Source: Natronosalvus halobius | GTDB taxonomy: Archaea > Halobacteriota > Halobacteria > Halobacteriales > Natrialbaceae | DNA length: 64,000 nt | Assembly: GCF_024138145.1 (NCBI RefSeq) | Contig: NZ_CP099997.1 | Span: forward strand, 2,790,001 to 2,854,000 | Direction of reading: 5' to 3' | Part shown: in pieces, positions 17,956 to 35,021 of the stretch | How positions within the stretch are numbered: position 1 is the stretch's first letter | How the letters are laid out: each line of letters begins with the position of its first letter | Notes under the pieces: generated by a model | Databases searched by the model: none | What the model saw: only the letters and a program-made list of their open reading frames with translations | Told to the model about the DNA's origin: nothing | Made by a program: the position numbers and the translations under genes

Positions 17956-18028
17956 GGGACCGTGGGTTAGCCTGGTATACTTCGGGCCTTGGGTGCCCGT
18001 GACCCCGGTTCAAATCCGGGCGGTCCCA
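17956..18028 (+). tRNA. tRNA-Pro (UGG)
   Basis: A full cloverleaf of 73 nt. The acceptor stem is GGGACCG/CGGTCCC, the D-arm includes GGTTAGCCTGGTATAC, and the anticodon stem CGGGC/GCCCG encloses the loop CTTGGGT with anticodon TGG. The T-arm is CCCGG TTCAAAT CCGGG and the discriminator is A. No intron and no encoded CCA. A degenerate copy of its 3' end lies downstream at 18113-18135. Confidence 0.95.
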
Positions 18029-18072
18029 TGTTACTGCTGCGAGCAAATCCGCGAGTGGCATCACCCGGAATA

Positions 18073-18135
18073 CGCTCGGATTTGAACCAGGGAGGAGCGC
18101 CGCTCCGACCGTGGTTCACAATCCGGGCGGTCCCA
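18073..18135. repeat. Palindromic copy of the tRNA-Pro 3' end
   Basis: The left arm (18073-18099) contains CGGATTTGAACC, the complement of the tRNA-Pro T-arm, and the right arm (18101-18128) contains GGTTCACAATCCGGG. The centre is GGAGCGCCGCTCC. The right arm runs on into GCGGTCCCA, the acceptor end of tRNA-Pro, followed by CTTTTATC. The two arms form an imperfect hairpin of about 25 pairs. Similar units flank tRNA-Phe and tRNA-Val in this window. Confidence 0.8.
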
Positions 18136-18282
18136 CTTTTATCGTCGCGAGCAATCTCGCGAGCGACGACAACGTGAAGAGCACGGAGTTGAGACAGGCT
18201 GAGGACGTGCTCGCTTCGTTCGAAGAATCCCACCTGAAGTTCACAACTCGGCTGTTCGAGAATTTCAAACGTCCCTGCTACG

Positions 18283-32391: not shown

Positions 32392-32482
32392 TGCCGCCTC
32401 CTGGATCGTGAACGACGCCTGAGAACTTGCTCGCTTCGCTCGCAAAACCTCGGCCTAGTTCAAATCCGGTCGGGTCGCACTT
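32392..32482. repeat. Palindromic copy of the tRNA-Phe 3' end
   Basis: TGCCGCCTCCTGGATCGTGA (32392-32411) is a degenerate copy of the tRNA-Phe 3' end, in the same orientation. It is followed by GAGAACTTGCTCGC and CGCAAAACCTCGGCCTAG, and then by GTTCAAATCCGG (32458-32469), a T-arm in the opposite orientation that runs into TCGGGTCGCA. The two tRNA-like ends face each other around a short core, as in the tRNA-Pro and tRNA-Val units. Confidence 0.75.
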
Positions 32483-32535
32483 TTTGCTCCGTGTGGACGG
32501 CTCGCTAAGCTCGCCGTCTTGTGCGTCGCAAAAGT

Positions 32536-32608
32536 GCCGCCTCCCGGATTTGAACCGGGGACAGCTCGATCTTCAGTCGAGTGCTCTCCCAGTCTGAGCT
32601 AAGGCGGC
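32536..32608 (-). tRNA. tRNA-Phe (GAA)
   Basis: A complete 73-nt cloverleaf on the minus strand. The acceptor stem is GCCGCCT/AGGCGGC, the D-arm is AGCTCAGACTGGGAGAGC, the anticodon arm is CTCGA CTGAAGA TCGAG with anticodon GAA, and the T-arm is CCCGG TTCAAAT CCGGG. The discriminator is A. No intron or encoded CCA. Confidence 0.95.
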
Positions 32609-34830: not shown

Positions 34831-34906
34831 TGGGCTCGGGCGGGTTCGAACTACGCCCGAGAACCTGCGCCTGGGGCGCAGAACCTCGGTCTACTTCGAA
34901 CCGCCC
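34831..34906. repeat. Palindromic copy of the tRNA-Val 3' end
   Basis: The 21 bp at 34831-34851 (TGGGCTCGGGCGGGTTCGAA plus C) are identical to the 3' end of tRNA-Val at 34948-34968. The arm 34838-34871 can pair with 34875-34906 in about 26 of 34 positions, with TTCGAA in both arms and a centre GCGCCTGGGGCGC. The overall plan matches the units beside tRNA-Pro and tRNA-Phe. Confidence 0.85.
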
Positions 34907-34947
34907 TCGCATACATTTCTGTGACTCACTGTCGTTCGTCCCAGAAA

Positions 34948-35021
34948 TGGGCTCGGGCGGGTTCGAACCACCGACCTCGGCCTTGTAAAGGCCGCGTCAT
35001 AACCAGCTAGACCACGAGCCC
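34948..35021 (-). tRNA. tRNA-Val (UAC)
   Basis: A 74-nt cloverleaf on the minus strand. The acceptor is GGGCTCG/CGAGCCC, the D-arm is GGTCTAGCTGGTTATGAC, the anticodon arm is CGGCC TTTACAA GGCCG with anticodon TAC, and the T-arm is GCGGG-type around TTCGAAC. The discriminator is A. No intron or encoded CCA. Confidence 0.94.

Follow-up and report, generated by a model that had tools for sequence, protein, structure and literature searches.

Tandem repeats that borrow sequence from a tRNA are known in Escherichia coli, where every one of the 178-bp repeats behind tyrT includes part of the tRNA 3' end (rtT RNA, RF00391). They resemble the structures described here in being tandem tail repeats behind a tRNA; they are not known to occupy more than one locus, to have an inverted T-arm or to exchange modules between tRNA types. 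Direct repeats of the tRNA 3' end are, moreover, a hallmark of tRNA-targeting integrases, for which the T-stem-loop is a known sublocation within tRNA genes (PMC8371274). At the attL and attR sites of such tyrosine recombinases (T-loop sublocation; SNJ2, pT26-2), the tRNA is restored or repeated by a copy of its 3' end that runs from the T-loop as far as the discriminator. Integron attC sites are imperfect palindromes in which a constant outer arm, with G/TT at its end, is combined with asymmetric bulges and a variable terminal stem, and both they and gene-less cassette arrays lie in tandem and gain and lose modules. Finally, REP/BIME and the haloarchaeal PATE, MITE and SMR sequences (PMC3119063) are short non-coding palindromes without a transposase, present in many copies and dispersed. 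Unlike those dispersed palindromes, the cassettes reported here are found only at tRNA 3' ends and have tRNA-specific arms.

The window analysed, 64,000 nucleotides of the 3.85 Mb genome of Natronosalvus halobius (NZ_CP099997.1, positions 2,790,001 to 2,854,000), contains cassettes behind tRNA-Val, tRNA-Phe and tRNA-Pro (Table 1). Each unit reads, in order, X (the tRNA 3' end, positions 53-73), an L1 hairpin, X' (positions 54-65 inverted), an L2 hairpin and a further X. The insert between the direct repeats of the tRNA 3' end is about 60-200 bp long and holds only the two hairpins, with no gene inside. The first-pass annotation had noted, behind tRNA-Val, a copy of the tRNA's own 3' end forming part of a palindrome, and both observations hold: 34831-34851 on the minus strand match positions 53-73 of tRNA-Val(TAC) at 21 of 21 bases, and folding joins them with 34908-34852 in a single imperfect hairpin with TTCGAA on each arm. 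The same plan had been seen at tRNA-Phe and tRNA-Pro, where each unit is indeed built from the sequence of its own tRNA. For comparison, the L1 of the tRNA-Val unit has 93% similarity to its orthologue in the congener G007, while the second L1 behind tRNA-Pro matches, by eye, the first L1 of the related genomes G002 and G007.

Table 1. Position of tRNA genes and cassette modules within the window.
Feature	Position	Strand	Basis or remark
tRNA-Val(TAC)	34948..35021	-	ARAGORN; Rfam RF00005, 63.6 bits
Source sequence X, tRNA-Val positions 53-73	34948-34968	-	
L1 hairpin of tRNA-Val unit (TTTCTGGGACGAACGACAGTGAGTCACAGAAA...), immediately 3' of tRNA	34907..34947	-	Fold
X' of tRNA-Val unit, T-stem and T-loop in inverted copy (GGGCGGTTCGAA)	34895..34906	-	Fold, arm comparison
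L2 module of tRNA-Val unit (GTAGACCGAGGTTCTGCG...CGCAGGTTCTCGGGCGTA)	34852..34894	-	Other L2 there in G007
Direct X copy of tRNA-Val unit	34831..34851	-	21/21
tRNA-Phe(GAA)	32535..32608	-	ARAGORN; Rfam
L1 of tRNA-Phe unit, including spacer up to X'	32470..32534	-	Fold
X' of tRNA-Phe unit (CCGGATTTGAA)	32459..32469	-	Fold
L2 of tRNA-Phe unit	32414..32458	-	Fold
tRNA-Phe 3'-end copy	32392..32413	-	Diverged, 1 extra base
tRNA-Pro(TGG)	17956..18028	+	ARAGORN; Rfam
L1 of tRNA-Pro unit	18029..18076	+	Fold
X' of tRNA-Pro unit (CGGATTTGAA)	18077..18086	+	Fold
L2 of tRNA-Pro unit (CCAGGGAGGAGCGCCGCTCCGACCGTG)	18087..18113	+	Fold
tRNA-Pro 3'-end copy	18114..18135	+	One inserted C, common to G002 and G007 orthologues
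Second L1 (CTTTTATCGTCGCGAGC...GAAGAGC) of decayed second tRNA-Pro unit	18136..18183	+	Read by eye

The relationship between the arms and their host tRNA was assessed quantitatively by parsing all loci. This placed 264 units behind 186 of the 280 tRNA genes, a sample biased to unit-bearing loci. Tandem arrays of two to four units, the maximum, occur at 59 of the 186. The copies track their own tRNA across positions 53-73; at positions 62-73 of the X copies in 247 parsed units, 2717 of 2964 cells match, as against a mean of 1388 and a maximum of 1504 in 2000 permutations. X' tracks its own tRNA at 54-65 and not at 66-72, with 629 matching T-stem cells (permutation mean 383, maximum 432). In gapped alignment complementarity returns at the discriminator (0.88 vs 0.54) and in the flank at +2..+9 (about 0.81 vs 0.65), and a residue of complementarity to the own acceptor persists under a stricter control (0.519 vs a control maximum of 0.503). 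Complementarity at discriminator and flank, together with the small acceptor residue, is read as an inverted duplication of tRNA 3' end and flank that has since eroded over the acceptor. What had looked like avoidance of complementarity to the acceptor vanished once the control was improved, leaving erosion and this small residue. The final flank also resembles the start of L1, significantly yet weakly, which fits an origin by inverted duplication, since such an origin predicts the likeness.

Distribution was first assessed within the window genome by scanning equal-size windows up- and downstream of its 44 tRNA genes, of which 43 were identified with Rfam and one, tRNA-Pro(CGG), was picked up by a covariance model. 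One or two units are borne by 20 of the 44, always downstream and on the strand of the tRNA; upstream of real tRNA genes the best copy matches at no more than 15 of 21 positions. The covariance model, of X'-L2-X and trained on 18 units, returned 21 matches in this genome at E<0.02 (best E 7e-16), all on the 3' side of 20 tRNA genes. At E<0.1, too, every match lies at a tRNA 3' side, so dispersed intergenic copies of the REP/BIME kind were not found there. The proposal that a repeated process acts on tRNA genes is strongly supported. Coincidence, which the first-pass annotation had considered, does not account for the pattern, as a varying half or so of the tRNA genes bear copies in three congeneric genomes. 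These three differ in which tRNAs bear units and in unit numbers, while their genes for Thr, Tyr, Gln(CTG), Cys and Ser(GCT) tRNAs have none.

Further afield, the model finds matches in 38 of 41 genomes (the window genome and relatives; 32 of the 33 of high quality), with up to 41 per genome. Over a draw from the phylum, 22 of 24 genomes inside the order gave matches, whereas none of the 124 from other orders did. A sequence pattern derived from the units, run against 84,980 species genomes, yielded 110 stretches and, among the matches listed (80 of the 110 stretches), all are haloarchaeal or euryarchaeal MAGs. A same-strand tRNA lies upstream in 81 of 85 pattern matches, mostly with X identity of 20-21/21, and two of the remaining four (L288 and L324) are inverted L2 modules beside an opposite-strand tRNA. 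In the MAG QS_5_68_33 an identical L2 is shared by two sites (L315 and L318), tRNA-Arg(CCG) and a tRNA-less place with arms; the latter is probably a unit that lost its tRNA.

The two hairpins behave differently in comparisons between loci. Among pairs at least 90% similar, 200 of 299 L2 pairs join different tRNA types, a count inflated by the L2-model-based choice of loci, as against 1 of 39 L1 pairs. Between the window genome and G007, L2 has been replaced while L1 and X were kept at Arg-cct, Val-tac (the window's tRNA-Val locus), Ser-tga, Leu-taa and Lys-ctt; Gly-tcc presents the reverse case, with L2 kept and L1 replaced, and the Met locus has modules in mixed order. The limits of L2 replacement fall in the T-loops on either side of it (TTCRAAT and the inverse of this), within approximately 8 bp of T-loop at each end. 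L2 lies reversed between X' and X at three loci (L288, L324 and L349), the joints falling within the T-loop, and is forward in 157. At Leu-taa, G007 has an additional L2 X L1 X' block that the window genome lacks, and so provides an example of an array intermediate; part of the L2 replacement could stem from older arrays contracting at X' repeats, with no new L2 brought in. Another L2 type (AACATCGCAAA...TTTGCTCAATC), restricted to the genus, occurs at Pro-ggg, Ala-cgc and Ala-ggc (L433, L435, L432 and L434), and in three of its four copies the left arm is a near-perfect match to the own acceptor end, which would be expected of young arms that have not yet decayed. No two identical L2 copies were seen within one genome, which gives no sign of current activity, and clean empty sites, with flanks identical but no unit, were not found.

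We consider it somewhat more probable than otherwise that these are modular palindromic cassettes, derived from inverted duplication of tRNA 3' ends on both sides of a mobile hairpin, which recombination at T-loops has since reshuffled, and that the tRNA-Val feature is one member of a haloarchaeal tRNA-tail cassette family. A unit would have originated when a tRNA 3' end and a short flank were duplicated in inverted orientation about an L2 hairpin lodged in the T-loop, L1 then representing flank plus inverted flank. The complementarity so produced would span T-loop, T-stem, discriminator and flank; only over the acceptor strand, where it would compete with tRNA folding and may have eroded, is almost none of it left. 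The T-loops could then serve as cores for recombination. Exchange between direct sites (X-X or X'-X') would let arrays grow or shrink and form mixed L1/L2 units, X'-X exchange would invert L2, and a single T-loop activity would thus cover array change, mixed units and inversion. Since the units hold no gene, the agent is probably trans-acting. The leading candidate would be a tyrosine recombinase using the T-stem/T-loop, which has the geometry of such an enzyme's core, 7-bp overlap included, as its core site; by analogy with integron integrases and attC, it may recognise the folded L2 hairpin. Microhomology template switching ranks close behind as the agent.

A more specific proposal, which we hold only tentatively, makes L2 a minimal mobile module with a T-loop core and host-derived inverted arms, its arrays being produced by a trans-acting, haloarchaea-specific recombinase of folded sites. 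Of the processes that had been suggested from the sequence, a tiny mobile element comes nearest, but the transferable part is the L2 hairpin and the arms are remade from the host tRNA. The inverted arms track the target tRNA rather than a consensus of the element, unlike the target-independent terminal inverted repeats of MITEs or casposon-like insertions with target duplication. The single-strand hairpin, bulges and variable terminal structure of attC are present, judging from folds and compensatory changes. The attC outer boxes RYYYAAC...GTTRRRY, in contrast, are absent, and nearly all parsed units have GTTCRAAT, the tRNA T-loop, as their outer core. Also unlike attC, the arms vary with the host tRNA, there are no cassette genes and no integrase gene nearby, and L2 can invert. 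Proteins with PF00589 occur in 12 of 12 genomes tested, and their counts do not distinguish genomes that have units from those that do not.

It is possible, though we think it rather unlikely, that no dedicated enzyme is involved and that the modules are created, exchanged, inverted and lost through replication template switching and short-homology recombination at palindromic T-arms. Fold-back synthesis classically yields inverted duplications, arrays offer ready substrates, and each rearrangement can be expressed as a switch at repeats of 7-21 bp. In addition, at least one unit loss, that at Gly-gcc (window genome vs G007), took place at the L1 repeat; by eye it looks like L1-repeat exchange, not T-loop exchange, and it probably arose by short-homology template switching. 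Set against this, the boundaries of L2 sharing and replacement are confined to the T-loop of approximately 8 bp on both sides, the L2 ends are conserved (NYAG at left, CGTG at right), and the family ends at the order boundary although many genomes have palindromic tRNA arms.

The folding properties of the units bear on a third and improbable alternative, that L1 and L2 form a functional trailer RNA, selected for termination, tRNA 3' processing or release of a small RNA. L2 is a hairpin of approximately 25-70 bp whose inner stem varies by paired, compensatory changes that keep the hairpin, and the tRNA-sense strand is the better folder in 206 of 228 informative units; the invariable location downstream on the tRNA strand would likewise suit a trailer. 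The better folding of the sense strand does not result from a surplus of G.U pairs (151 sense vs 191 antisense), and our guess is that purine-rich internal loops cause it. The outer pairing, on the other hand, is not kept by compensation, since at sites of mismatch between tRNA and copy X' sides with the tRNA 49 times and with the copy 9 times. Rfam scans of the window loci and of three arrays returned tRNA alone above the gathering score, with no RF00391. The processing or termination device suggested earlier is possible, but presence, unit number and L2 type vary between sister species.

Ordinary integrases do act at the same tRNAs. In G007 an integrated element of about 21 kb at tRNA-Pro(TGG) (G007:C1:963927-985200; L426, L427:3482-4640) encodes a 377-aa XerC/D-like tyrosine recombinase and ends at a short tRNA 3'-end repeat; it displaces the palindromic unit. 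Another, of about 6 kb and with two integrase genes, lies at tRNA-Ser(TGA) (G007:C1:1796176-1802700; L188, L178), where the unit stays downstream of the displaced partial tRNA. The tRNA-Pro integrase was considered as the T-loop recombinase and rejected, its att repeat differing within the T-loop (GTTGAAACC vs GTTCAAATCC), which fits a short 3'-end att like that of SNJ2. That the units are attL/attR scars left after loss of such elements, as the first-pass annotation had allowed and as their direct repeats would recall, is very improbable: these two true elements insert between tRNA and unit and leave a different repeat, the units add an inverted third copy and two hairpins in a uniform anatomy across 20 tRNA genes and at tens of tRNA types per genome, the inserts at those 20 genes contain no integrase, integrase remnant or cargo, and no carrier was found among the viral contigs or phages searched. 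Two pattern scans of IMG/VR gave chance matches only, mostly AT-rich, with no upstream tRNA and no matching palindrome, and phage BLAST gave just short unrelated matches.

A search of titles and abstracts in the openly available literature found no description of the cassettes, whose novelty lies in both structure and behaviour; were the agent plain template switching, that claim would shrink. They constitute a clade-wide and class-specific genome feature, and the genes that bear it are the most conserved that a cell has. If the T-loop is a recombination core, they would represent in its smallest form the reason why tRNA genes attract recombinases, the attraction being an inverted repeat that is already in place and has a 7-bp overlap, and an archaeal counterpart to folded sites of the attC type; a haloarchaeal recombinase yet to be found, or a striking template-switch hotspot, would then be predicted. 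For annotation, a repeat of a tRNA 3' end is not on its own a sign of an integrated element in haloarchaea.

Related sequences occur on plasmids. One true unit lies on a Natronorubrum replicon, which carries tRNA-Val. Most other plasmid matches listed are a 22-nt loop motif, and three that were inspected lie outside tRNAs. A sequence resembling the L2 terminal stem, GCGCGCAGCGAAGCGAGCACG, is intergenic and outside tRNAs in plasmids of Halobacterium, Halorubrum and Haloferax (L394-L396). On the Haloarcula halophila plasmid NZ_CP119561.1, a TROVE-domain gene is preceded by an array of at least 16 tRNA genes, and an L2-like hairpin lies within a tRNA-Cys-like gene, between the 5' strand of the T-stem and the T-loop (L393:1420-1557), and some neighbouring plasmid tRNAs contain other insertions.
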